Assembly (NCBI RefSeq): GCF_000006405.1 | Contig: NW_003214716.1 | Coordinates: 18,398 to 49,467, forward strand | DNA length: 31,070 nt | Reading direction: 5' to 3' | Origin: Perkinsus marinus ATCC 50983 | Taxonomy: Eukaryota > Perkinsozoa > Perkinsida > Perkinsidae | Part shown: in pieces, positions 10,081-28,900 of the stretch | How the letters are laid out: each line of letters begins with the position of its first letter | How positions within the stretch are numbered: position 1 is the stretch's first letter | Notes under the pieces: generated by a model | Databases searched by the model: none | Told to the model about the DNA's origin: nothing | Seen by the model: only the letters and a program-made list of their open reading frames with translations | Translations under genes and position numbers: made by a program

Positions 10081-11576
10081 CTAATCGTGTATGAAATGAA
10101 ACAATATCATTACCCCCATGAAAACCCCAGATGTGAGTCGTGAACCTATGACAAGTAACCTACCGCTGTCTTCAACCGCATCCTTCCTCTTCCTACGTCT
10201 CGGTGACTCCACGACATCCTTCCTTTGTCTACGTCGGGGACTCGGAGGAGATCGGCTACTCTCTCCCCGGGACCTCTCATATGAACGCCCATCTAAAGAC
10301 TCAAGTAATCAGTGCCATTCGAAGATGGCAGTATCATAACAGAATTCCAATTATTCCCCCATCCACCGACACTGCATGACAACAGCGCCGCCGCGTGAGC
10401 TTACCTCGACCCGATGGGCGTTCAATATAGCGTTGCCTCGGACCAGCTTGAGCATCGTCACGTGCCTTCCTCCAGGCATTCAAGTCTGCTGATGATTTCG
10501 ACGATCTACCTATTTCCAACCTATACTTCGAAAAGTCTCATCCGATTATTCTCCTTACTTTCCTTCACCGGCGACTCGGGCCTCCTCCTTTTCTGCTGTG
10601 ATGAAGACATATTCCCCTTCCCTCTACTACTATCACGACGACTCCTGATAACAACATCACTGGGATCGATCGAGCTAGGACTACCTGCTGGGACTCCTGC
10701 TAGGACTCTCAGACGATGATGATGACGATTCGCTGCTGCTGTCACTATCTGAACTACTGCTACTAGACGAAGATGATGATGACGATGAAGACGATGATGA
10801 TGATAATTCAGAGCGTCGACGGCTCCTCTTCATTTCCCTATGCTTCGAACGAGCCTTTCGAGTCTCTGTAAAATGAAGTACATCACTGAGTCATCCTCAG
10901 CAGAATCTCCAACCCTTTTTTACCTTTCTTAGGAATCACCACCTGGCCTTCACGGGCTGCTTTCCTCTCTCCAAAGCGCTTATTGTCATATAAGAAATTG
11001 TTCCTATATAAACAATCATCGTCCCATCCACACTGCCTACACGAGCTCTCCGTAGCGTCCCTCTATGCCCTAGCGGCTAAGGCCTAACCTCGTTGAAAAC
11101 TACTTTTCAACGACCCTTATTTAATTGTCTACTCCCGTTATTTGTCGTCGTCCGACTTACTGAGGGACGTCCGGGCCAGGATCCTCATTAAACTTGGGCT
11201 GATACTTCTTACTCCGAATTTTCTGCATCTAGAAATACACTCCGTGAGAATCGAACCTGCGTCCTTTCCACGAAGCCCGTCTTACCCGCGACATCCGACT
11301 AGCATTCTTAGGCGGATTCTTGCACTCGTAACTCCAATGACCATACTGAGCGAACAATAATACCAACCATAGTTCCGGCGATTAAGCCATGCCGACCTGT
11401 AGACAGTTCTGGCAGAGAATATCCTCTTTCGCCTTACTCGTGGCCGTCGAGAGCCTCAACATTTCGTCAGAGAAAATTCCTGAAAACTTCGCTCCGCCCG
11501 ATTTCTCCAAACACTTTACGCAAGCATCTTTTCCATTATACGATGGTGAGAATGTTACGCATGAAACATGCAGCAT
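10081..11576 (-). CDS. CCHC zinc-knuckle protein with Ser-rich and Arg/Ser-rich tail (ZCCHC10-like)
   Basis: Exons 11576-11397, 11345-11286, 11222-11161, 11036-10924, 10865-10685, 10644-10559, 10509-10405 and 10292-10164 join in phase. The CCHC knuckle (C-x2-C-x4-H-x4-C) spans the first junction: CQNCLQ then YGHWSYEC, which resembles the zinc knuckle of ZCCHC10/SREK1IP1-type proteins. Next come basic residues, a WDDDC segment, a run of about 20 serines with Asp/Glu, then SPSRSP, KRRRPESP and SPRRR repeats typical of nuclear pre-mRNA processing factors. The role as an RNA-binding splicing-related protein is inferred. The 3' end is uncertain: without a further splice the frame stops at 10081. 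The start is also uncertain; the first in-frame ATG (11576) lies one base past the stop of the channel gene upstream. Confidence 0.7.
11223..11285 (-). repeat. 63-nt intron with sense tRNA T-arm
   Basis: The intron runs GTAAGA to ATGCAG. Inside it GCAGGTTCGATTCTC forms a T-arm-like B-box about 20 nt before the acceptor. Exon phases on both sides agree. Confidence 0.8.
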
Positions 11577-11577
11577 G

Positions 11578-14500
11578 TTAATCAGAGTCTGCTGGATCAT
11601 CGTCGTCATCATCATCATCGTCATCATCATAATCATCATCATCCGACATCGACGACACATCCTCCGAGGTGTCTTCATAACGCCTACGGGGGTCGGCAAG
11701 TATGCCCGATCTGGCAGAGGACCTCTCAGCGACATCGCCCCGATGTCGAGGATAAATACACGCGCCGCCAAGGTGATCGTCTGACAGTCGGGAGGTATCC
11801 GGCTCGAATCCCAGTGAGGTTATTTTACATGCTGGATCTCCCTTCACGACCTGTACAGTTCCCTCAGGATTCAGCTTCGCCACTTCATCGCTAATTCGCC
11901 CAAATACCTCCTGAGAATGCACGAAAAATATCCCCACCGGGGATCGAACCTCCGCATATCACATCATCCGGCACGCATAAAAGCGAACACCAATCCGATA
12001 TCTTCCCTTCGTCCTCTTCAGTGATAACATAAATATGCGGACTCCCTGCTGCAATGGCACTAGACCTAGCATCTTCCCGTTTACGGTAAGCTCTCAACCA
12101 GGAAAGTATCTTACACTCACATACCATACCATCAATAACTTCCGCTTCTACATCAACTCGACCGTCCCAAAATATTACGAAAATATCATCGATTTTCTCA
12201 TTGTCCCGTATGATCGAGGGATCTGCATCGCACTCTTCGACCAGGAAGTGGGTCATCTCGAAATCCAGTAAACCCACTGCCACATTTAGTGCTGGGGCCA
12301 TGCCTACAGAGGACAACAACCCAATGATTATCCCCGGTTCGATTCCCAGCAACGGCACTTTTACCTGCTACTCCCGTCGAGGAGTTCACTACTCTTCTAA
12401 CCGCATCAAACCCATGCCGCTCCTTCATCTACCATCCACAAATCGGCAAGGCGGAGCGAAGCATTATTTATCCCCGGTTCTATTCCCAGCAACAGCTTTT
12501 TTCTATTCATTAACCAACCCAGCGTTATCAGACCGAGTACGATTCCAAGAATCCACTTCCTACCGCTCTAAGGACCATCCTGGCCGCCGAGAAATAATGC
12601 GTATCGATCAATATGTCCGCTGGGGTACTTCCTACCCTGTTAGTAACAGCAGCATCAGCTCCGCGATCTAAGGCGATGAATCCGGGTCAAATACCGAGTC
12701 TATCATAGTTTTAAGTCTACACAGATTAATATCCACCGAAATCAGTACGAATGGAGTTCTAACTGAATTCTGAGAATTTCCCAAGCTGTATTATAGTGAT
12801 CCATGAATGACTTTAGGTGTGTACAGCAGCGACATGAATTTCGACCAAAATATTGTCATTGCCATCAACACGCGTATTTAACCATGTGAATGTTATTTTA
12901 TAGAGTCTTATCAAGTAGACTATACTTAATACAGTCACCAAGGATCGAACCGGATACCTCCAGCATTACCCAACAGGAGCGACAGCAGCAACTCCATTCC
13001 ACCATTCGTCCGTAGCGCCACAGCATGCAAAGGAGTCTCGCCCGTCCTCGGATTCATATAATTGACATCCGCACCAAAATCGTCGATACATCTCCTCGCC
13101 ATCGACAAGGCCAATTCTTCATCAGAATAACGGCATATCTAAATTCAACAATTTCGTGGCGCGTGACAAAATATCGCCTTCAGACGTGTAAATTATTTTA
13201 TGCAACCGCATCACCTTCAATTTTTTACCCGCATTAAAGTAGAATCCCTCGTATCCGGATCCACAGCGTCTGGCACAGCTCCACCTTCCAACAAAACCGA
13301 TACCACGCCATCCCCACATCCCGATTCCAACGCTCTTTGAAACGGCGTCACTCCTCTACTAGCAAACACATTGACCTAAAGATGTACAAAAATCCTCATT
13401 TTCACAGCGGAGCGGAGCACTACCTCAGCTCCAGCACCCAAAAGTATATCGATGACTTCAATTCGAATATCATCCGGAATAGTTGAGACTCTCAAAAGCC
13501 CGAAAATCGGCGTTTCACCGTTGGCAGCCCTCACGTTTGGATCAGCTTTATGTTCAATCAAAAGTTCACAAGAGTGTTTATCGCCATTTTGAGTTGCGAT
13601 ATGAAGTGCACTCAATCCACCACCACCTTGAGTAGCCAAATTCGGCTTCGCTCCGCCTGACCAAATCATTACACGACGCTTTCAATGAAATAGATAAAAG
13701 GCTCATTTATCAAACGTATTGATTAACAATTATTATTTTTCTACACTTCTACTCCACGAAGTGGTGTGTATCCCAAGTCTGAAAACCCCTGCGCTCAGTC
13801 GTATAAAGCAACCATGCAGCAGAGTCCCATCCCGCCCACGACTCATCACCGTCACGCGCCACGAAATTACCCTCCAATAAAACCACAGCCAGGTCATGAT
13901 GTCCTTTTTCTATCGCCGTTTGCAATGGAGTAAACCCATTTCTCGGATGAGGTAAATCCAACTCCGCTCCGCTCTCAATTGCCATGTTACACGCTTCAAT
14001 ATCATTCTTCCTAGAATAACAAAAACAAAAAACAACTTCGCTCCGCTAGATATTTTCCCCAACTCAGCCGCTGAATGTAGATCCATAGCCTTCAATAAAG
14101 CATGAGTCGCCGAATCCTGCGTCATCTCCATCAACGTCCTTCCCATCGCATCAGTCACATTCAGCTGTGCACCATGTGACACCAAACATTTTATCTATAA
14201 ATCTTACAATCTTGCTCTACCTTACATTTCCTCAACGACATACCATATCTCGATCGTTTGCTGTCACCGCTATCGTCAAGGGCGTGTCACCATTTTGACC
14301 AACCACATTCGGGTCCGCCGAAGCCTCCAGTAGAACCGTGGCCATACCCACATCGCATCCACTGTCTACCGCCTAAATCAGCAATGTTGGAGTAGGAATA
14401 TATGTTCCTCAATAATTATAAGAGTTTACACACCAATTAATGTCGAAACCAACAACAAGAATTCCCTCACAATTTCCATATTCTCACCGACACACGTAGT

Positions 14501-17500
14501 TGACCACCACCACGTGCATTGTCTACCACGTCTGCACGCATGCACATACCAGTATGATTATGGGTTCCTTAGTTGCCGAATCGATCAATGTAGGATCCAC
14601 ACCGCTCTTCAGTAGGGCCTTCATCGCGCCAATCGAAGAATTATGATCAACAACAGACGGCGTACGAAGGGACAACGACGAGGCCGCCATCATCATAGAC
14701 TAGAGAAGATGACACACCCCTGGATCGAACCAGGGACCTTACGATACACAAAACTCACACTTCTTTTTTCAGCCAATGAAGAACTCGAAGACGCTCGCCT
14801 ACCATCACCACCCAGCCAATTGAATATCTCCCACACTTGAATATTACTTTTTATTCAAACTAGCTCGACGAGGTGTTGTTGTTGTTGTCCCCACATTATC
14901 ATTAGCCTGCCACCCCACAGGGAGCCTCGACGATGACGAATGTGATGATGATGATGAAGAGGAAGAGGAGGAGGAGGTATCATCATACAGTTCATCATAT
15001 TTCGTTCCCATACTAAAAACGAGTTAATTATTCAGCACGCCTGCACACATATCACGATTTGGGTGATAGACCCCTCCTCCTAAGAGGGACCCTAGGAGAA
15101 CGCAGAGGAGAGGTGTATTGAACACAGCGACCCAACCCAATCTCAGACGTTTCTTACGTGGCCAGCGCGATCGCCAGAATATTCCTTATTTCCGTAACCG
15201 CCATCGATACTTCACTCAACTTCTCAGTAGGGGCTGCAAAATTAATACCATAATTTCAGCTAATTCCCAACTCCAAATATACCCTCACCCGACCTTAGGA
15301 GTGCCACACACAATTTTCCATCCTACCCTCCTTACGTTCACTATCGGATGTCATCGGCTCCACAGTGAAGTCCATAACTGCTGATTGGACTCTTCCCTGA
15401 TGAAGTCCCTGTGCTGCTGCTGTTGATGCCAACAACAAAGCGCTCGATCTGCCTGTATCCTTCCTACGCAGCCCTCTAGCAGGCTGATGAATACCAATCT
15501 CTGACCGAAATTCATCATAACAAACCACTAAGACGATCTAATACAGGTTCAATATTCAATTACGAACCCGATCAGGTCCGATCCTTGGGCCCGATATTTA
15601 TATAATCTATCCGCGATATACTACACAATAGACGACATCTTCGAAATTTCGAGTATAAAAATTGTAGCACCATCATCGAACCTGGGTGCTTCGATGACTA
15701 AACAACGTCCTTCCCCTACTACTCAATCCTTTCTCATCAAATTCCGCCGTAGCATAATTTATCGGAGTTAGATCAGCATCATCCAATATCAAAGGATTCG
15801 CCCCACCCTCCAACAACAGGGATACAATCTCAACCTTCAAATCCTTCACAGCCACATGTAACGGAGTACCTACATCAATCCAAATCGATCACGTGATCGA
15901 TTTGGATCCCTACGATGGTCCACAATGCTAGGCATATTAACAGCCCTGCCATTATCCTCCACAGCTTCCGTGAGAATCTCAACAGCGATCTCCCTCCCCC
16001 AACGGACCGCCAACATCAGCATCGTATCCCCAGTGTCGAGATCGTCGATTGAACTTGGTAATACCACACCATCCGTAACAAGGTCGACGAACGTCTGAAT
16101 ATTAAAAAGAAGAATCATCAGAAATGCATAGGAAAAAATGCAACATATCAAATGACAAAAACACGAAAAAACGTGACAAAAAGTAATTGAAAAACCTTAA
16201 AATGCATTCACTGTAATGTAAGATGAATAAATTCGCGAAACGAAGAGATAAAGCAGCTGAAAATTCAAAAACCCTCTGAAAAAATACAACCCCGCCAGGT
16301 ATCGAACCCACGACCATCCCATTAGCAGCCCACCTCCATATCGTTCTTAGTTATACAATACACTCCTTTGGTCTCCATATAAAATGTCACCGCTTCCGGA
16401 CTCGTCGATATCCTTTCCACAAGATCATCTCTTTTCAACTTCACCAACTCCGTAAATGATCCGCAAACTCCCGTCTCCTCGTAATCGCCCTAATCATTAT
16501 AATCTATCAAACTACAGTACGCGCCATGTACAGACCATAACTTCGTGTGCAGCGATAACTTTCTCAACAGCTAAAATTTTGAATATTTAAAAGGCCCTTT
16601 TTATAGTTATACTTCATGGAAACTTTCTGCGATCGATTTTCGGAAAAAATCGGGGCTCTTCTTTACACATGTCCAAGTTTATCCCCATGCCTCTGCTATT
16701 TCCCTTTTCAATGAGAATATATATTTTAGCTACGTAATAAGGACCGTATATCACGAGTATTTCAACAGTTATGCAAATTTGATAATTGAATCTCAGAAAA
16801 TTATGCAACAATACCTCTAAATGAAATCGAGAAAAGCAAACGCATAGTTCAAATTGAATCGGTTTTAGCTCAACAACAATATACACAAATCTAATACCCA
16901 CTGATTTCAAATTGTATTAGTTTTCATGCATTTTTCCCGTAAAAAAAGGAAATTCCTCTAGAGATTCTCCCCTTACCATAATACTGACAAAAACACATTT
17001 TGCATCAATTCAATTCCAATCTATAGATCGTAAACATACCACTTCAATTCACCATCATCAACATGGAATAATCAATTTCCACACCATAACTCAATAAGAA
17101 AACATAAAAAAAACCCAAAAAAGTCCAAAAAAGCACCAAAAAGAAAGCAAAAAACCGTCCCTCGAGTGGTCACGTATTACCGCAATGAATAGATATTGCT
17201 CCCCCACATAGTCTTCCGCTTTCAAACTGCGTACATGTTCAGTGACAACCTCCGCATCATCCCCTTCATCCTCTCCATCTACTTTACCACCCGATCGACG
17301 TGAGGCGGAGGTATCCCTGAACCCATTTAGAGTTTCACATGAAGTGGTGTAATACTCCATGTATAAAAACCAATATTCGCAATATGAAGTGAATTGTGAA
17401 ACATATGTTTTAAACATACAAAAAATATACAACATTGAAATCCCACCCATGATATGAAAAACACGACTACTGCATATCACCGCGAATATCGCGTTTTCAC

Positions 17501-20500
17501 AGAGTATCACGCCACTCCAGATAAAACAGGTGAAATTCTATTACAGCAATCACATAAATAATATTTTTTATCATTATATGCAATATCGTGCCTAATTCAT
17601 GCGGCTTGGGACAATAACTGTTGGTTGTTGTACACTTCTACCCGGTGTCGTGTGTTAATTTCCATACCGAAACTTTGGCAACTCCTGAGCTAAGCTACTG
17701 AGAGCAGACATATATTCCAACACCGTCATCAGGCCTCCTTAATTCCAACCACAATCGAAACTAGCCCCGACCGCGCGCCACAAAATTACTCGTTCGCCCC
17801 ACGCTCGTCATCACCAGTCACCACAGCCACCAACGTCATTCTACCCTTCCGAACAAAATACCTGAAAAATGCCCTTGCCAGGATTCGTACCCGGGACCTT
17901 TTACATGCCTTCCGCCGGTTCTCCCTGATAGAACATTACATCTCCCGGAGCACAGAAAACATGGTTGCAAGCCATGCATATCCTCGCGAGTAATTCCTCA
18001 CGTGTTCGTGCGAAAAAATTATATCTGCGAAAAAATCTCCTTGCGAGGGATCGAACCGGGGACCTTTCGCTGGCCCTACCTCCGTAATAACTTGCCCATC
18101 AATGTGAGCTGCATTTCATTCCTCAACGAATCCGACAACTATAAAATCCAATACCAATTCAATCAAGAGCCGCATGAATTACCATCGTCATCAACTCGGC
18201 TTTGGCTTTACTCTCGAATTGATTATCCAATAAATTTTCAATATATCTGCGAACTCGCAACTGAGACAAAAGGAAAAACTTTCAAAATGTGCGGAAAAAT
18301 CAACGAAAATTTACTAACAAGAATATTCCATCCACGATACAAAAAATACAAGACAAAAAATATTTTACATTTCCCCCCAAAAAACGGGGTTGATTGAATC
18401 AACTTGATTCCACTGATACGAATACTGATTCTCCCCTCAAAAATATTTTAAAAAATCTAATTTCCACACTGATCGGGGAAATTTCCAAAATTTTCGGGAA
18501 AATTTTCGCTTGAAAATTACCTGCAAATGTGGTCCGACGTTATTCGCTCTCATAAATTTCATCGCTCTTTTCATCCTCTGCCGGAATTCAGTTTTATATT
18601 CCCCAAAAGATACCACAAGATTCGTCACCGAACCTAAAAACTCACCAAATATTTTCGTGGCGCGCGGTCATTTTTCTCTACCAACAACCACCGCAAAAAT
18701 AACCCCAGCTGCAAGCATCAACATCATCGTAAAATTTCTTTCATTATTATTTTCAGCAGCTACCGGTCCGTACATAGTCGATACCACCGAAACCGCATAG
18801 AATAGCGACCGAACGTACCTAACGAAAATCCTCATCGGCATGATGATGATGAGAGAAGACAATTTAAACAATGTGCATCGATGCGAATCTAACTAAGCCG
18901 TGTCGTCGTAGTAGGCGTTAGAAATCACAAAGTCTCGCGTATTGCTATCATACTCTTATTCCGTTTGGGAGGAGGAGAAAATTCATTTACACGTGTCGGT
19001 GACAATATGAAAATTCCGAAAAAACTTTGCTGATTATTTTCTGTACATTCCTACCCAAATTCGTATGTAAACTCAGCCGTTGAGGAAAACCAACATATAT
19101 TACTCCAAGTAGGAGTTAATATATTACTATACATTTACATAATTATATACTACATACTAGAGCTATATATACTTATTTACCATAATTACATTATATACTA
19201 TTACATACATTACTCGTATTACTGTTGGAGTCTCCAACAGTAATAATGTTATTATTAGTAATATCAATACCATATAAAATACCGATAACTACTATCGAAT
19301 ATTATTCCCCAAATACCCAACCTACTTATCATATAACGCACCCTGCACATTCAAGTTGTTTTCTTTAACCCAATTATCCTCCATTTCAATTTGAGCTTCT
19401 CCAATGGTCCACCAAAAACAGGCGATCCAATGCGAAAAGCACATGAGCCCAAGGAACATCTTCAGCATAGTAAAGGAGACCAACCAAATATCCGATTCAA
19501 TATGTTCTTCCATTTTTCCCAGAAGTTGCCGCAGACGTACCAAACGCAGTAAACGTACCAATTCTGGACATGCTTTGTATCTTACCATACTACAACCTAA
19601 GATTCTTACTTAGAACTTTGAAGGCGTCCACAATACTCATTGACGATCTCTCACTCGACCCAGTATCTAACAAAGCAGTGCTAGAGGAGGAGGAGGAGGA
19701 GGAATATATATTTGCTTTCCTTAGCTCAGCTACTCAAAAGCGAAATCATATAAATTAACATACGACTGTACGAAACCCAACCAGAATTCCGCATAGTTTA
19801 CCATCTACTCAAAAACAGAAACTTCACGCGGTGTGCACTCCCAGGGCCCGTATGAGGGAGAATATGCATATACTAAACTACATGAGTCGGCGATAATATG
19901 AAAATTATGAGGAAATTATGGGGAATTTCCTATCAGTTTGTGTACACTCCTGCCCCAACTCCTATGTAAACTCAGCTGAGGAAAGCGAACATATATTCCT
20001 CCAATACTACCTCCTGTGAATATCCAATAAAATGGTGTCGAGGAAATAAGATCCACGATAAACCACGTGCGAGTATAATTATATATTATCGCTTTATTTT
20101 CCAGGTTGAGTTCCTGCGTTGAGGAAATGCAAGATTGCAAGATACTCATCATCGCCACCACTCACCCCCCTATACCAAAAACCAGTGAAGAAATTCAAAA
20201 CCAGATCCGTGAAAAAGAATATCCCCACGCAGTGATCGATATCGGATAACCAACCACTCAGGACTGCATCAAATGACAATAAATAGGGTACCTAAAACAC
20301 GAATTTACGACGGTGTGGTACAGTAGACGCTTGCAAAGGGTTGGAAATAGAGTAATATTTTTTCAAGTGCGCGACTTGGATTTTAATACAAAATGTTAAG
20401 TGAAAAAACATTAGCACAAAAGTCGATGTCGTTGAGAAAAAACTCATCTGACGGCGAGTGCGTGAGAATATGCAAATGGTCAACTACATATGTTGATGAT

Positions 20501-21500
20501 AATATGGAAATTTCGAGAAAATTTTCGGAAATTCTTACGGATTCCTTTACATTTGTACCAAGATTCGTATAATTAGCTTTGGAAACTCTTGACCTCAGCT
20601 GGGGAAGGCGCAGAAGTTATATTCCAACGCGTATGGTATTTCCAATAACAAATCCCGTATACAAAATGAATTCGGTAATAAACTAAAACCAAAATGAATT
20701 TGTTTGAATCAAATCCGCTTCCCCATGATGGTTTACTAATCTCGAAATCTCAAAAATCATTTTCCAGGAGAGTTCGAAAACGTTAATTCGTTTATTCTAA
20801 TTCGTCAGTCTAGTAACTATCAAGGATTTAACCGGAAAAATATCATTGGCCGAAAACCGTCCAAAAAATGCGAGAGTTGAAAATGGTGTGGTATAGTACA
20901 TGGTCACCAAAATATTTTATACCACCAATGAGAGGAAGCATATGATAACCGTCACGCGCCACGAAATTACCAAGAAGGATTGATAGGCGATGAAGAGGAG
21001 ACTGACGAAATCCCAAACCAGTCGGAATTTACGGTCCGGGTAGACGATCCATCTCCCTGAAGATTCTAAAAAGAGAAAAAATGACACATGCCGGGATCGA
21101 ACCTGCGCACACTACCTCCATTGGATTGCAACATTGCAGCTGCGGAACCATCCACTATACCACCACTTCTGCCATGAAGCACAGCTCGAGATGACGATCT
21201 GGACCACATTCGCTCTGCTCCCTGATCGCAGGTTCGATTTCTTGTGAATTCATTTTCTCAAATAATTCATATAACGACATAACCAGAATTGTTTATTATT
21301 GAATTCGTTACGAATTTCGTAAGGACCTGAATTCTTCACAAGTTCCTTCAAGAATCCACACAGTTTTCAAAATCACTGAGGAAAAAATATGAGTCCGCAC
21401 GTGTTAGTCATAATAGACCCCCGAGTTCAATATTCGTCAATACACTCAACCGCATTATAATGAATCCATTCATAACACACATTTCACGAGTAATAAATTA

Positions 21501-21578
<78 letters not shown>

Positions 21579-23752
21579 GAGTAAACCGTAGTAATTTACT
21601 ACCGCGAATTCTACTACAAGAAAATTATCAAAAAACTATTACTACCATTTTCGTTTTCCGTGGAGTTACCGATACCCGTGATAATGGTGTCATAGTCGGC
21701 TCTGAAAAACAATACCCAAATCGATCAACCGTTTCATTATATATAAATAATATTACTTCCACTTTCCATAGCACCAGCATGAGCATAATATTCCACCAGT
21801 GAGTCCAACGCCCCGCCCTTCAGCAGAGGCGACTGGTCGGGGCCGGCCTCCTCCTTGGTGAAGTCCTTATTCTCAATACTGCCACGTGGAGTATCTCAAA
21901 AATAGTACATGATGTGATTTGGGAAAAATACTCATCAATATTAGAAATCATGGAGAGTATGGGAATGCATATTTTCACTATCGTAAACCTGCTGGAGGTG
22001 TCCATCATAAAAATGATAATGAAAGTGTAATACAAAAGTCTGAACACTTTTACTATTTTTCTCTACTTTTTCTAGGTATAAATATTCGAGTCAGCTGTTT
22101 CACAACCCGTTTTACGTAAAACTCGGTGTAAAACGCGATAGTCGCGGTGATATGCAGTAGTCGTGAAATATGTCTTTCACTAGCGTTTTTCATACCACTA
22201 GGGTGAAACTACAATGAAAGGCCTCAAATAGAAAATAAATGAAAAAGTTCCCTGAGGCAGAGTGAATCACTCGATTATAAATCAAAATGGAGTATTTATG
22301 AACCCTCGGATGATCCTCGATAATTTATACTCTATCTCAGCCGAGTAAACAGATTTTCCGGAAAATTCCCAAACAATTTTCTGCAGAAAAAATTATGCAA
22401 CCCGGCCATTATCAATTAATCCTACCATTTCTTCTTGATAACCTCCTCAACTGCCGGCGACTCGACAACTTGTCCTCATCAATTACCTCAGACAGGACAC
22501 TACCTGAGATGCCATCCCAAAGGTCCCCGGTTCCATCCCCACAGACTCTACTCATCACTATTATATTTCATACTCTATTAAACTCAATTACTGTTTCTTT
22601 CAATTAGACTGACCACCGGAAGGTCCCCGGTTCGAACCCCAGCAACGTCATTATTATTACTCCAAGAAGCCCTCCCAGATCCTCTCCCTTGCTCAGCTTG
22701 CTGCAATGACCTCCCACGCACAGCCGATGGATCTTTAACCTGATATACCGTATCAACTACATCAACGCGTCCACCTCCCTCACACCAACGATTAGGAATA
22801 TATCTTCAAATGTAATATATCCAAAAACTACACAGCATTGCCGAATGCCACTATAATCGCAGACTGCCTCAAATACCCGATTCCACCGTATAAGTTAATC
22901 GTGCGCTTTAAACTAGTATACTACTACTACCTCCAATCGGTTTGGTAAGTTCACAGGAGTTTTCCCTTCACCATCATCGCCCGATCCCACGCCAAAAACC
23001 TTCCGCGTGCGCACATCCTTCGTCGCATCTATCTCGGTAGACACATGAGAAGATATCTTCCCTGTAGGATTCATTTCATGCCCGACAAGAGCCTTCCGGA
23101 ATTCCTCAATAATAGATCGATGATGTGCCATCATATCCTCTGCTGTTGCCTTTGCGATGTTCATTTGCATCTTCCTCATTTCACCTGAGATCCAGCCCTA
23201 ATACTAGTCAGATCATAGCCATAAAAACGAGGAGAATCACAACCCTTCCAATGTGGACTACTACTACACTTCAATTAAAACGATGCGTCCTCGTGTGGGG
23301 AAAACATGACGAACTACATGTGTTGATGACAATGAGAAAATTTTTCGTTGGTTTTTGTACAGTCCTTCCTCCTAAGTCGTGCGTAAATCTACATAATGTA
23401 GCCTCGGAAACTTCTACTACGAGAATAAAAGAAAAACTTTGCATTTTTCGCCTATATACAAATAGCACTATCCACCCCAAATAGCTAATATTTATTAATA
23501 ATTACTACCTAGTACATCGTGAAGGGTCAACTCTGAAGCGGCAGTTCCTGACACACCCCATCCCGGAGTAACATTCCTCGAAGCAGCTAGCGGTGATGGC
23601 AAGTCAGCATCGAGGCCATTCCTCGTCCTCCGAGGACTTGCTGTTGTTGTTACGAATGTCGATGGTACCATCAAGGTGCGAACTTTGGCATGTGATTGCT
23701 GCTTTGATGGTGATACACTACTGCAATCTTGGTGGTGGTGACGGATAACCAT
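11578..23752 (-). CDS. Voltage-gated, cyclic-nucleotide-type ion channel with C-terminal ankyrin repeats
   Basis: About 34 exons and 1,600 residues. Main exons: 23752-23509, 23184-22931, 22778-22661, 21894-21757, 21065-20971 (S1, YPDRKFRLVWDF), 20291-20166 (S2/S3, FFTDLVLNFFTG), 20113-20011 (RTWFIVDLISSTPF), 19666-19610 and 19563-19326 (S4 LVRLLRLVRLRQ, S5), 18818-18682 (pore, S6), 18633-18521, 18260-18183 and 18138-18092 (C-linker), 18024-17905, 17861-17790, 17316-17181, 16562-16536 and 16489-16334 (cNMP-binding fold: APGDVMFYQGEPAEG, MYFVRKG, YVGEQ). From 16094 to 11963: 14 exons, mostly ankyrin repeats (RTPLHVAV, GETPLHAVAL, GADVN). Then 11910-11829 and 11780-11578, an acidic tail with 11 straight Asp. 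Layout matches plant AKT-type and protist EAG/CNG-like plasma-membrane channels. Odd points: the filter reads STMYGPV, not TVGYGD; the cNMP fold has an acidic insertion and its expected Arg is missing from my model. Exons between 15527 and 14870 (Ser-rich linker) are less certain. Confidence 0.85.
11781..11828 (+). repeat. 48-nt intron with antisense tRNA T-arm
   Basis: The minus-strand intron starts GTAAAATAACC. Within 20 nt it contains GGGATTCGAGCC, the reverse of a T-arm; plus strand GGCTCGAATCCC. Splicing joins the exons in phase and leads to the acidic C-terminal exon. Confidence 0.75.
11911..11962 (-). repeat. 52-nt intron with sense tRNA T-arm
   Basis: The intron contains GGAGGTTCGATCCCCGG followed by GATATTTTTC and the acceptor CTCAG. 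The T-run serves as polypyrimidine tract. Both neighbouring exons are phase 0. Confidence 0.8.
12304..12364 (+). repeat. 61-nt intron with antisense tRNA T-arm next to the donor
   Basis: The minus-strand intron starts GTAAAAGTGCCG, then GGGAATCGAACCGGGG. The plus-strand copy reads CCCCGGTTCGATTCCCAG. The same CAGCAACG tail follows the copies at 12476-12498 and 22624-22648, so these three share a recent source. Confidence 0.8.
12476..12498 (+). repeat. Antisense tRNA T-arm copy in intron 12429-12563
   Basis: Plus strand ATCCCCGGTTCTATTCCCAG followed by CAACA, nearly identical to the copy in the next intron (12304-12364). The B-box is mutated (TTCTA for TTCGA). Confidence 0.7.
12932..12960 (-). 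repeat. Sense T-arm close to the donor of intron 12668-12969
   Basis: On the gene strand the intron opens GTAATGCTGGAGG and continues CCGGTTCGATCCTTGG. The element sits near the 5' end here, with an AG (AAGTATAG) shortly after, so an original short intron may have been extended. Confidence 0.65.
13151..13168 (+). repeat. Copy C of the GTAATTTYGTGGCGCG element, near an acceptor
   Basis: Plus strand ATTTCGTGGCGCGTGACA, antisense to the channel gene. It lies 12 nt from the 3' splice site of intron 13139-13228. Confidence 0.85.
13851..13870 (-). repeat. Copy D of the GTAATTTYGTGGCGCG element, forming a donor
   Basis: On the gene strand the intron 13657-13870 begins exactly GTAATTTCGTGGCGCGTGAC. 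The junction restores the ankyrin sequence LLEGGAKPN, so the splice site is well supported. Confidence 0.9.
14395..14545 (-). repeat. Intronic repeat family 2, sense copy in intron 14373-14549
   Basis: Shares the words GGTCAACTACGTGTGT, GAGAATATGGAAATT, TGTGTAAACTC and GAGGAACATATATTCC with the other family members. Its ATATATTCC end lies about 25 nt before the acceptor. Confidence 0.75.
14700..14760 (-). repeat. Sense tRNA T-arm before the acceptor of an ankyrin exon
   Basis: Gene strand: TAAGGTCCCTGGTTCGATCC, then AGGGGTGTGTCATCTTCTCTAG and the exon at 14699. The T-stem pairs well (CCCTGG/CCAGGG). Confidence 0.8.
15870..15913 (-). repeat. 44-nt intron made almost entirely of a perfect palindrome
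   Basis: The intron is GTAGG, then a perfect 30-nt palindrome (15878-15907, centred on CACGTG, with arms ATCCAAATCGATCAC), then TGATGTAG. Splicing rebuilds the ankyrin motif HRTPLHVAV in frame across phase 1. Confidence 0.9.
16283..16333 (-). repeat. Sense tRNA-like element at the 5' part of intron 16095-16333
   Basis: The intron begins GTGGGCTGCTAATGG and continues GTGGGTTCGATACC, then GTATTTTTTCAG. CTGCTAA resembles an anticodon loop (GCT). The proximal AG gives a 58-nt intron; the in-frame model uses a distal AG at 16095. Confidence 0.7.
17436..17541 (+). mobile_element. MITE-like inverted-repeat element, copy 1
   Basis: Ends GAAATCCCACCC and AGGTGAAATTC. The interior ATGATATGAAAAACAC, ACGACTACTGCATATCACCG and TTTTCACAGAGTAT is shared with copies at 22094 and 26707. 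Confidence 0.8.
17574..17735 (+). repeat. Intronic repeat family 2, antisense copy
   Basis: Shares TGTACACTTCTACC, GTGTGTTAATTTCC and GACATATATTCCAACAC with other copies. It lies about 35 nt inside the donor of the host intron on the gene strand. Confidence 0.7.
17769..17789 (-). repeat. Copy E of the GTAATTTYGTGGCGCG element, forming a donor
   Basis: Gene-strand intron start GTAATTTTGTGGCGCGCGGT. The exon before it encodes the cNMP-fold strand MYFVRKG. Confidence 0.9.
17862..17904 (-). repeat. 43-nt intron that is essentially a tRNA T-arm plus T-run
   Basis: It reads GTAAAAGGTCCCGGG, TACGAATCCTGG, CAAGGGCATTTTTCAG. Removing it joins GEPAEG to MYFVRKG, a conserved stretch of the cNMP fold, so the intron is real. 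Its last half matches intron 18025-18091 closely. Confidence 0.88.
18025..18091 (-). repeat. 67-nt intron with sense tRNA T-arm and T6 run
   Basis: GCGAAAGGTCCCCGGTTCGA, TCCCTCGCAAGGAGA, TTTTTTCGCAG. The T-stem is nearly canonical and is followed by an acceptor-stem-like stretch and a Pol III-terminator-like T run, which doubles as the polypyrimidine tract. Confidence 0.88.
18652..18670 (+). repeat. Copy F of the GTAATTTYGTGGCGCG element, inside a 48-nt intron
   Basis: TTTTCGTGGCGCGCGGTCA, antisense to the channel gene, occupies the middle of intron 18634-18681. The intron separates S6 from the C-linker in phase. Confidence 0.85.
18968..19112 (+). repeat. Intronic repeat family 2, antisense copy
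   Basis: Shares TACACGTGTCGGTGACAATA, TGAAAATTCCGA, TGTACATTCCTACCC, GTATGTAAACTCAGC and CAACATATATTACTCCAA with the copies at 19845 and 20457. Located in intron 18819-19325. Confidence 0.85.
19845..20010 (+). repeat. Intronic repeat family 2, antisense copy whose end is the donor
   Basis: GAATATGCATATACTAAACT through TATGTAAACTCAGC to ACATATATTCCTCC. On the gene strand the intron 19667-20010 begins GTAGTATTGGAGGAATATAT, so the repeat terminus is at the splice site. Confidence 0.85.
20457..20637 (+). repeat. Intronic repeat family 2, antisense copy
   Basis: GAATATGCAAATGGTCAACT, TGATAATATGGAAATTTCGA and TTATATTCCAAC match the family. Located in intron 20292-20970. Confidence 0.85.
20951..20970 (-). 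repeat. Copy G of the GTAATTTYGTGGCGCG element, forming a donor
   Basis: Gene-strand GTAATTTCGTGGCGCGTGAC, identical over 20 nt to the donor at 13870. Splicing joins S1 (AYQSFL) to VPYLLSFD in phase. Confidence 0.9.
21078..21170 (-). repeat. tRNA-like element with possible extra arm before an acceptor
   Basis: Gene strand: GGTATAGTGGATGG (A-box-like), GCAGC/GTTGC arm around TGCAAT, GCGCAGGTTCGATCCCGG as T-arm, then ATTTTTTCTCTTTTTAG and the S1 exon at 21065. This is the most tRNA-like copy; it resembles a type with a long variable arm, but the acceptor stem is not intact. Confidence 0.75.
21501..21578 (+). repeat. (TAC)n microsatellite, about 26 units
   Basis: Uninterrupted TAC repeat in intron 21066-21756 of the channel gene; reads GTA on the gene strand. 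Confidence 0.97.
22094..22213 (-). mobile_element. MITE-like inverted-repeat element, copy 2
   Basis: Minus strand: GTAGTTTCACCCTAGTGGTA, AAAACGCTAGTG, ACGACTACTGCATATCACCG, ending GGGTTGTGAAAC. Located in intron 21895-22660. Confidence 0.82.
22504..22530 (+). repeat. Antisense T-arm copy in intron 21895-22660
   Basis: Plus strand AAAGGTCCCCGGTTCCATCC, followed by CCACAG. Same family as 22610-22648. Confidence 0.7.
22610..22648 (+). repeat. Antisense tRNA T-arm next to a donor
   Basis: Plus strand GGAAGGTCCCCGGTTCGAAC, then CCCAGCAACG. On the gene strand it starts about 12 nt inside the donor GTAATAATAATG at 22660. Confidence 0.8.
23292..23425 (+). repeat. Intronic repeat family 2 copy
   Basis: ACGAACTACATGTGTTGATG, ACAATGAGAAAATTT, TGTACAGTCCTTCC and CCTCGGAAACTTCT match the family. 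It lies in intron 23185-23508 of the channel gene. Confidence 0.75.
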
Positions 23753-25931: not shown

Positions 25932-28900
25932 ATGTCATCAGCCTCTTCCCAAGCCCACGCCAGAGCTCTAGTCCGGCAAGCAAGAGCAGCTGCTGAATCT
26001 GGTGGAACAGGTGGACCGTCGGCTCCTACTACTATACGGGGAGTTGCGATATGTAGTATTGGAAAGTATATGGGGGGGGGGGGGGAAATCATCTCAAAAA
26101 TACTAATATGAAAGGAAATTTAGTATATATAATTGAATTATACTCCCCATCTACCAATAAAGGATATTACCATAGTCATTCATAACGATTGTGATTTTTG
26201 CGAAATAATTAATTTTTACAGAATTATGAATAACTTGATTTTCATAATTTTACGAATAACGGCTGCTTTTCGAGGTACTCCAATTCCAGGAGTCACTGAT
26301 GCGGTTATTTGCGTCCTTTGCAAGAAACGAGTGAAAACCGGTCGTATGTGGGCGATTCATTCCAAGACACCTCAACACCAGCATCTAGTACAACGATTAC
26401 AACTGGTAATAATTTACCCGTACCGTTTTAACGCACTTTTTTATAAGGCATTGGTATCACAAGAAAGTAAACCTGCTGCTACCGAGACAGAGGACAATGA
26501 ACAACATGCAGATAAAGGTGTTGAGGGAAAGAACGAAGAAAAATCGGGAGTAATAAAATGGGAGAAATAATACCGTAATTTTCCCGAATTCGGAGAGTCG
26601 ATTGCTTTGTAATTGTGTTAGTCCTGAAATTTTCCCAACGATTTTCTCTATATTTTTTACGACAGAAAAAACTCTACACGAAGTGTTTTTTAGAGAATAT
26701 AAATAAGTTTCACCCTTGCTATGAAAAACACTAGTGAGAAATATATTTCACGACTACTGCATATCACCGCGAATATCGGGTTTTTCACAGAGTATTATTA
26801 CGCCACTTATTACGCATAAAACGGGTAGTTGTGAAACTCCAATGTATGTGGACGAGTTGTTCATAAACGTATGAAATTATTTGTGTTTTTATTGATAGTT
26901 ATTGAGTGCTGGGTACGGTGATGATGATGACAATGAAAGCTCGGGGGAATCTGAGGTTGATGATGGGAAGATTCAAAACAGGCCCGAAACGCCACCTGCG
27001 GATGATGTTGTCGTACCTCCGCCACGGAAGGTATTATTGGATCGGATTTAAAAGAATAACTTAAACTGGAAAGTTTGTGGAAACATGTGGGGAAATATCG
27101 TGAAAATAAGCGGAAAATTTTACCGAAAAAATCAGAAAAAAAAGGAAATGATCCAAGTTCTGGTCAAAAATTTTTGACCAGAACTTGGATCAAAACCCAA
27201 AAGCAACTTCTGAGAGCGACGAAATGCAGTGGATACTAAAAATGAATTTTTGGGAAAAAAACTATAAATTTATACTCAGTAAGAAAATCGGGAAAATAGA
27301 TGTTTTTCTGCTCAGGAAACTGAGATGGAAGCTGTCGGCCCTATACCGGCAAATGAGGATCTTCTTGATAGCGACGATATTCGGAATTATGTTACAGCAG
27401 AGCTGGCTGGGTTGGTGGTGTCGGGAACAGTGTAATAATGAGAGAGCGAAATTATTGGCTTATCACATTCTGTTATATCATCAAAGTTTGAGTCATAAAA
27501 TAATGCAAATTTTCAGTTTTGAGATTATGACGGTTACAGATTTATAAACTGCTAGGAAACATTGTCAATCTATTCACCTTATTATCAAGTGGATGACCCT
27601 CGAATTCTCGAAATTGCAGAAAAATGATTTTGCACAACGGTTTCATACACCGTGCTGTGAATCAATAGCGAACCCATAAAGCGGCGATAATATGAGCATT
27701 TCCTCCTAGACGTTTTTACCAGTAAAAATATTTAGGCGTTGATGATAAAATTTTTGGGATTTTTTTGGTTAATGAAATAAAAATATTCCAATAATTATGT
27801 TTGGTATGTTTTTGGAGGTTGTACAACATTAAATATGTGAAAATTTATTTTTCCCAGATATGAATATGAAAATGGTGAGACGGGAGAACCAGCGAAGGGG
27901 AAAAGGAAGAGAAGGCCGATGAAGAAAAAGAAAGGTAAAAACCATATTTTCCTCGAATGATTCACGTTCACTTGATAATTGATTCTTAACGGGAATTTCA
28001 ACACGGTGTTTTCGTGATAATTTTCATATTATAATTCATCTCGGTAATCACCATCTCACGGAGCTCTCATTTGACCTTTCCTGAGTTCCAAGACCGCTCC
28101 TCCCAGAAACGAGTTTTACTTGTGAAATCCAATCCTGGGAGGTCTACCAAACTCCCGGTAGTGTCGTATTGGAAATATATGTTTAATTTCTGGTATAAAA
28201 TTCCTCTCTGAGTAGCTCACTTTATATAATGTATACAGTGGAGTTACAACCGTGATATGATTAACATTAGTGACAAATATATCTCACATTTCACTCCGCG
28301 AAAAATAGGTGAATCTCAATAGTGAAATATTATCCGCAATTATTATAGATTTGGAATTGCCATAGTTGTGCTCGATCAGCTTTGGGTACATCAGCACTCC
28401 CAGAAGGGTTCTTCGATGATGAAGATAAAGCGGCGGAGGTGTTTGGTCGTGGTAATATACGTAACAGGTATGCATGTAGTTGTTGGCAATCATCATCTCA
28501 GAGGCCCCGAGTAAAAGGCGAGATAAGGATATGCAGATTGACATGAAGAAGTAAATTTGGGAATAATTTCGTGGCGCGCGGTCATGAATACTCACTCTTC
28601 ATTAACTTTCATAGGGAAATTCTCGCGATGTTCGTCTTAGATTTTACGTAATTTTTCTTAAGGAATCTATAAGGGGATATGGTTATCAATATTTCAAGTT
28701 GAAAATCCCCGTCGTTATCGGTTCGAACGCGAGCAGTTGATGTGAAATTCTCACAAGAAAGCATGAGATTGTTATCATTGAATATGTAATGTTTGATAAT
28801 TCTCTCAGATTGGAACTCCAACTTGATGCTGGCGATAGACGGCAATTGGTAGAAGGTAACACACGAATTGAGGAGGATTCAGATATCATCACAGACGAGT

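Follow-up and report, generated by a model that had tools for sequence, protein, structure and literature searches.

Where new spliceosomal introns come from is a long-standing question, and a 31,070-nt stretch of Perkinsus marinus DNA, hereafter the window, raises it for the region between positions 11223 and 22660. A sequence-only reading had claimed that at least 14 introns in three genes of this region are built around tRNA T-arms, with the tRNA 3′ end acting as the splice acceptor. Is the motif real, does it lie in introns, and is it a piece of tRNA? Scanning the region with a profile at ≥12 bits, we found 15 copies. We compared them with contig C31, whose larger aligned blocks are about 81-96% identical to the window.

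11229..11285, minus strand: 57-nt putative GT-AG intron, sense copy with core at 11247, lying before MQKIRSKKYQPKFNEDPGPDVPQ; read by eye.
11781..11828, minus strand: 48-nt antisense form, core at 11801 on the plus strand.
11911..11962, minus strand: 52-nt predicted intron, sense copy with core at 11940; the unspliced frame hits a stop and the spliced frame continues.
12336..12346, plus strand: copy antisense to a minus-strand gene.
12476..12486, plus strand: diverged copy.
12941..12951, minus strand: sense core copy in an ankyrin-repeat region.
14700..14758, minus strand: 59-nt GT-AG segment, sense copy with core at 14721; it has a counterpart in C31 (the L110 paralog).
15575..15585, plus strand: diverged copy, kept in C31.
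16298..16308, minus strand: sense core GGTTCGATACC followed by T6 CAG; degenerate in C31.
17862..17904, minus strand: 43-nt predicted intron GTAAAAGG...CATTTTTCAG, filled by a sense copy with core at 17881.
18025..18079, minus strand: 55-nt predicted intron GTAGGGCC...TTTTTTCGCAG, sense copy with core at 18047, in the same channel-like gene as 17862-17904.
21093..21103, minus strand: copy with an A-box-like TGGTATAGTGG upstream (by eye) and T6 downstream.
21231..21241, plus strand: diverged copy.
22529..22539, plus strand: copy, kept in C31.
22629..22639, plus strand: copy with the palindromic core GGTTCGAACC, kept in C31.

The segment at 17862-17904, named earlier as the shortest intron and as little else than a T-arm plus a T-run, turned out exactly as described: 43 nt, with a T-arm-like copy and a T-run. 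Splicing it out gives QGEPAEGM/YFVRKG in frame, and Pfam cNMP_binding matches across the junction with 26.7 bits (cut-off 27.5). Removal of 18025-18079 yields GKLLRR/YNFFARTREELLARIC in one open frame, with stops in the other two. When both are taken out, the join gives LLRRYNFFARTREELLARICMACNHVFCAPGDVMFYQGEPAEGMYFVRKG in a single open frame of a minus-strand, cNMP-binding-like channel gene. The intron at 11911-11962 also occurs in the paralog on C31 (L110, core at 1156), and Pfam found no family for the protein around it. Judged by reading frame, protein match and paralog, these three are well supported as introns, and the segments at 14700-14758 and 11229-11285 are plausible ones. Thus, of the claim of at least 14 introns, the motif matches stood, but the remaining copies are not proven individually as introns. 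Because 14700-14758 ends just before ATG ATG ATG, it may be a cis intron of the 5′-UTR or an SL trans-splice acceptor. Spliced-leader sequences are abundant in the genome (97 matches at ≤2 mismatches; reversed controls 0). For 11781-11828 splicing is unproven, since the length is a multiple of three and the frame is open unspliced. About 36 nt matching the motif is missing from C31 at this place, a single case in a messy, diverged stretch with ambiguous flanks.

The motif is real and extends well beyond the window. The window is C218:18398-49467 in an assembly of 54.5 Mb and 347 contigs, one HSP90 of which (its gene is also on C233) matches that of P. marinus ATCC 50983 with 100% identity over the query, that of P. 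olseni with 97%, and that of P. chesapeaki with 95%. In this P. marinus assembly, the core GGTTCGATCCC occurs 924 times, against 5 for the reversed control. A 35-letter near-consensus with ≤3 mismatches allowed gives 263 matches against 0. The profile scan covered 197 kb, comprising loci centred on tRNA, HSP90, U2, and SL genes, the window, and contig C31, which was taken in for its richness in copies. It gave 72 distinct matches at ≥12 bits (reversed-sequence control, 1), 19 of them ARAGORN tRNAs by our own count, and 69 matches at ≥14 bits (control, 0), true tRNAs being among the 69. Cores with ≤1 mismatch number nine in the window, where 0.47 would be expected. Some individual matches do read as protein-coding: those at L057 and at L009/L010 look like plain coding sequence, and the RING frame at L090 reads through its copy. 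Given the reversed controls, chance, a compositional artefact, or coding matches are nevertheless a very improbable source of the motif as a whole.

The sample comprises 88 loci, taken in the order of the list from the first contigs (C1-C40); 8 came with the core search and 80 were added. They hold 93 exact core copies with enough flank, 92 of which are free of N. Among 139 open reading frames near copies, Pfam recognized 14 families with one member each, and we placed E2, HAD, and RING by eye.

Several other repeats were seen along the way. Upstream of a U2 snRNA gene on C102, seven B-box-like motifs stand in tandem over ∼330 nt (L039, 320-653). The neighboring array unit (L040) has similar motifs at 628 and 3136, identical contexts being counted once. 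A dispersed non-coding repeat, also of ∼330 nt, carries the motif at L003, L062, L065, L085, L104, L121, and L126 and has a GCTCCGCTCGCTCCGC-like tail; short pieces resembling this tail occur in the window. The window also contains a ∼77-nt dispersed repeat at 17462-17538 (>30 matches, roughly 76-97% identity) and a 44-nt hairpin at 27149-27192, whose Rfam match lies far under the cut-off.

What, then, is the motif? The 92 copies have in common a block of ∼36 nt, from about −8 to +28 around the core, and outside it they are flat (mean identity ∼0.25 at −90 to −15 and at +30 to +80). Since the exact core was the selection criterion, only the flanking columns count as evidence of conservation. 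The block aligns with tRNA positions 44-73 and a T-run. Numbered as in a tRNA, A44 G G T C48 is followed by the T-stem, the TTCGATC loop, the T-stem again, and seven acceptor-like letters (the first three close to random), after which come A73 and the T-run. The discriminator position 73 is A in 60 of the 92 copies, and T-rich columns follow. B box, discriminator A, and T-run stand at tRNA distances from one another, which makes the block tRNA-3′-end-like.

The fold is a different matter. The T-stem pairs 51-63, 50-64, and 49-65 are formed in 41, 67, and 46 of the 92 copies, respectively, where shuffling gives 38.9, 64.6, and 42.9. Their mutual information is matched by 169, 23, and 57 of 200 shuffles, so these pairs show no covariation. 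Mutual information exceeds z 3 in 17 of 351 position pairs; the strongest are neighbors (65-66, 46-47), with a few weaker distant linked pairs such as 48-72. Upstream of the 92 copies, the best candidate for a 5′ acceptor partner is about at chance level, and an A box (≥7 of 8 consensus positions) precedes 13 copies, a small subset only, against 7 and 5 in two controls. Within the window, ARAGORN and Rfam found no tRNA, and none of the 93 sampled core copies overlaps an ARAGORN tRNA. We rejected a conserved T-arm fold, as the T-stem pairs do not covary, and full tRNA genes for most copies, given these searches and the few A boxes. An LTR primer-binding site was rejected by reading, because a T-run and not CCA follows the motif. 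Of the idea that the introns are built round a tRNA T-arm, the tRNA-3′-end-like sequence in unrelated genes and its tRNA spacing hold, but the T-arm fold does not.

One account of such a block starts from introns that already existed: common tRNA pseudogenes or tRNA-derived SINEs would have inserted there and degenerated, leaving the B box as the most recognizable remnant. PMC3706591 gives more than 500 P. marinus tRNA genes in five types, and an RF00005 search gave at least 63 tRNA matches (63 of 4410 candidates scored). The account also draws on the dispersed ∼330-nt repeat, which bears the motif at 7 of the 88 sampled loci, on the A box in a few copies, and on a 118-nt intron of a GTP cyclohydrolase I (GCH1) gene. 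At the donor of that intron (L073) begins an antisense stretch that looks to the eye like a near-complete tRNA, with D-arm-like and T-arm-like parts; the same gene carries a motif intron besides. At 43-62 nt, however, the tested motif introns are about as long as the published median of 49, which argues that nothing was added to an intron of normal size. Moreover, conservation does not reach far upstream of position 44, the T-stem pairs do not covary, and no acceptor partner stands out. On balance, we regard decayed pseudogenes or SINEs as an unlikely origin. A stretch on C31 outside any gene identified there (L135, 5980-6060) looks by eye like a decayed tRNA followed by T6.

Intron status in unrelated genes was judged by protein continuity. 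Seven spliced junctions were searched as one chimera against proteins, and the best 120 relatives were examined. Pfam was run on 10 proteins, including one ankyrin stretch of the window gene. The seven junctions, left by removal of candidate introns, are as follows.

GCH1: 62-nt sense intron, CEHHLLPFY/GTVDIGYIP when removed; Pfam matches across the junction with 97.1 bits, and 54 of 55 relatives span it, all 54 gap-free within 6 residues.
Cystathionine beta-synthase (CBS): 49-nt antisense intron, GYDFIPT/VLDRDPS when removed; Pfam PALP runs across with 20.6 bits, under the cut-off; 71 of 71 relatives span the junction, only 5 of them gap-free within 6 residues, and the gap in one inspected alignment (P0258) amounts to two residues, shortly after the junction.
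Phosphatidylserine synthase (PSS): 48-nt sense intron, GLYLC/NYLEFKEYHW when removed; Pfam across the junction 79.4 bits, spanned in 1 of 1 relatives.
AAA ATPase: 51-nt sense intron, AFVS/RIDTSVEFALPD when removed; Pfam across the junction 23 bits (cut-off 21.2), spanned in 3 of 3 relatives, all P. olseni.
Nucleoside-monophosphate-kinase-like (NMP-kinase-like): 54-nt antisense intron, GWVLD/GFPST when removed; no Pfam match and no relatives among the best 120.
CFAP251-like: 51-nt sense intron, CAL/GFFPSQLEI when removed; spanned in 1 of 1 relatives.
fn3-containing frame: 49-nt sense candidate intron, suggested by the open frame and by an fn3 match (18.2 bits, under the cut-off) that stops at the junction; no relatives among the best 120.

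The names NMP-kinase-like and CFAP251-like are presumptive. The single relatives of PSS and CFAP251-like are both P. marinus gene models, and such models may themselves be predictions; none of the best 120 relatives is named as a Perkinsus transcript. Pfam likewise found no match for the L071 segment. Mapping of five P. marinus proteins resolved one ordinary intron. Judged by protein continuity, several copies are the bodies of real GT-AG introns of 43-62 nt, and introns of unrelated genes share sequence beyond their splice signals. In GCH1, the relatives have neither fewer nor more residues at the junction, which indicates that the entire intron was an addition.

Splice signals around the sampled copies were counted for both orientations. 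In the sense orientation, GTRRG occurs 19 times at −29 to −6 among the 92 copies, where ∼5.6 would be expected (∼1.4 per 6-nt bin, four bins). In the antisense orientation it occurs 20 times at +19 to +36 against about 5-6 expected (∼1.5-2 per bin, three bins), and 15 of the 20 lie beyond the motif, at +25 to +36. Within the motif, at +13 to +18, there are 8 sense and 5 antisense occurrences, so motif composition alone can yield some donor-like words. Pyrimidine-AG is in excess at +25 to +36 in the sense orientation and near −11 in the antisense one. Over the whole genome, the 10-letter core has a sense GTRRG 2-16 nt before it in 193 cases; with a permuted donor the count is 74. A spliced-ORF score of ≥90 was reached by 22 of 93 copies (null mean 9.1, maximum 13 in 30 sets); at ≥70 the excess is weak, with 28 copies against a null mean of 19.8 and a maximum of 27.

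The sequence-only reading had made the tRNA 3′ end a general splice acceptor. This did not survive, because both orientations make comparable short introns: the antisense donor excess is as large as the sense one, and two antisense introns (CBS and NMP-kinase-like) restore conserved motifs. The related statement, which puts most sense copies 5-35 nt ahead of the 3′ splice site, agrees with the introns we tested, but the distance is largely forced, as the motif fills introns of ∼50 nt.

How many copies are intronic? The GTRRG excess amounts to ∼28 of 92 copies, and GTRRG is present in 12 of 16 hand-read introns; rough arithmetic from this donor excess puts perhaps ∼30-45% of copies in short introns. 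Table 1 of PMC7789003 lists for P. marinus 109,756 predicted introns (median 49 bp, mean 124 bp, 99.3% GT-AG) and an assembly of 87 Mb, 26.4% of it coding. With that number of introns of median 49 bp in 87 Mb, introns of ∼49 bp make up no more than a few percent of the genome. An intron share of the estimated size lies far over the genomic fraction of such introns and nearer the coding fraction, which would be expected if insertions into exons persisted solely as introns.

A second account places the cause in function: the motif would be a constrained DNA site, a putative extended B box for TFIIIC or a similar factor (ETC-like, serving genome organization or Pol III), which evolved or was retained in introns, exons having no room for it in a genome of closely packed genes. 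Extended B boxes at sites free of Pol III (ETC sites) are known in yeast and human (PMC12409998). Scarce A boxes, orientation independence, and S/R/Y degeneracy with mostly local linkage all fit such a site, which explains the degeneracy and orientation independence better than an introner-like history does. Paralogs bear on this too. Over all 12 paralog pairs, 336 of 372 motif positions are identical, against 727 of 900 in the flanks. In three distant pairs (L005/L114, L056/L094, L071/L103), where the motif stays as the rest of the intron diverges, the figures are 77 of 93 and 114 of 225. This comparison is partly circular: the exact core led to both members, which makes 33 of the 93 positions identical from the outset, and with these set aside the motif keeps 44 of 60 against the same 114 of 225. 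The distant pairs thus give moderate support for constraint. In L071/L103, antisense introns of 48 and 51 nt lie between conserved exons (by eye). At L094 (485-520), downstream of a ubiquitin-conjugating-enzyme frame, an acceptor-like TAG precedes an ATG, and an antisense copy comes directly after that ATG; this island is kept in L056 despite diverged surroundings. By itself, a constrained B-box site leaves unexplained both the share of copies that fill introns of 43-62 nt and the constant distance, as in a tRNA, to A73 and the T-run, and we hold it to be possible but rather unlikely.

The reading that we favor, with about an even chance of being right, is an old, diverged introner-like family with a tRNA-3′-end-like core. 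A tRNA-3′-end-like element of ∼36-50 nt, running from the variable loop to the discriminator A and then the T-run, would have inserted many times in either orientation, and copies in coding DNA would survive as GT-AG introns of 43-62 nt. In the sense orientation, the T-run would sit at the polypyrimidine position before AG; in antisense copies, the donor would have the A-run or the acceptor-like end next to it. The common motif, its excess, its two orientations, and, by protein continuity, intron status in several unrelated genes are all found in the DNA. That insertion created the introns, and that the element came from a tRNA or a tRNA-derived short element, we infer. The ∼36-nt block takes up most of an intron of ∼50 nt, and the intron share, far above the genomic fraction, together with the whole-intron addition in GCH1 favors an introner-like history. 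Two features speak against such a history: motif positions are linked mostly over short distances, so that no subfamilies stand out clearly, and the core lies at varying distances from the splice sites. The target-site duplications that had been looked for gave no signal either (direct repeats of ≥5 nt at 25 of 83 copies, mean 21.3 in mismatched pairs), and intron creation by the element thus stays an inference. Being S/R/Y-degenerate but free of T-stem covariation, the sequence resembles a binding motif more than it does decayed tRNA copies. A mixture may also apply, in which inserted tRNA-like elements were retained for their B box. We further propose, tentatively, that a tRNA 3′-end fragment (variable loop, T-arm, acceptor strand, terminator) may itself have been mobile, inserting either way and being spliced as a near-minimal intron of ∼45 nt, one of whose splice signals would come from the T-run or its complement, and may so have seeded part of the intron set.

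How does such a family compare with known systems? Introner elements occur in Micromonas and Aureococcus, and in classic introners the splice sites lie at a fixed distance from the core, unlike the variable core-to-splice-site distance here. PMC7789003 cites those of both genera and describes introner elements (IEs) in Amoebophrya. Like introners, the present family consists of many copies in which introns of unrelated genes, here GT-AG, share sequence beyond the splice signals; it differs in having no detected direct repeats, a length of 43-62 nt, both orientations, and a tRNA-3′-end-like core. Conversion into introns and exons is known for tRNA-derived SINEs and Alu-type elements. With these the family shares the Pol III B box and a T-run or A-run near splice sites; here, in contrast, A boxes are few, most sampled copies lack a shared body or tail, and only tRNA positions 44-73 and the T-run are present. 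ETC (extra TFIIIC) sites are dispersed extended B boxes lacking an A box (PMC12409998), and in most of the 92 copies the B box likewise comes without an A box; the present motif is tied to short introns and keeps the tRNA spacing of A73 and the T-run. Dada transposons also link mobile DNA to tRNA genes in the P. marinus genome. They insert into the tRNA genes themselves, with a putative TAGCTC A-box duplication in three of the families (PMC3706591), and this duplication is not the intron motif.

In the titles and abstract openings listed by literature searches, we found no report tying a tRNA-end-like motif to introns, though an earlier mention may exist. Known introners are mostly thought to be DNA-transposon-like. 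If the present reading is true, a tRNA-3′-end-like family that lies either way round in near-minimal introns would suggest that introns have another source as well, or that their DNA has an unsuspected function.
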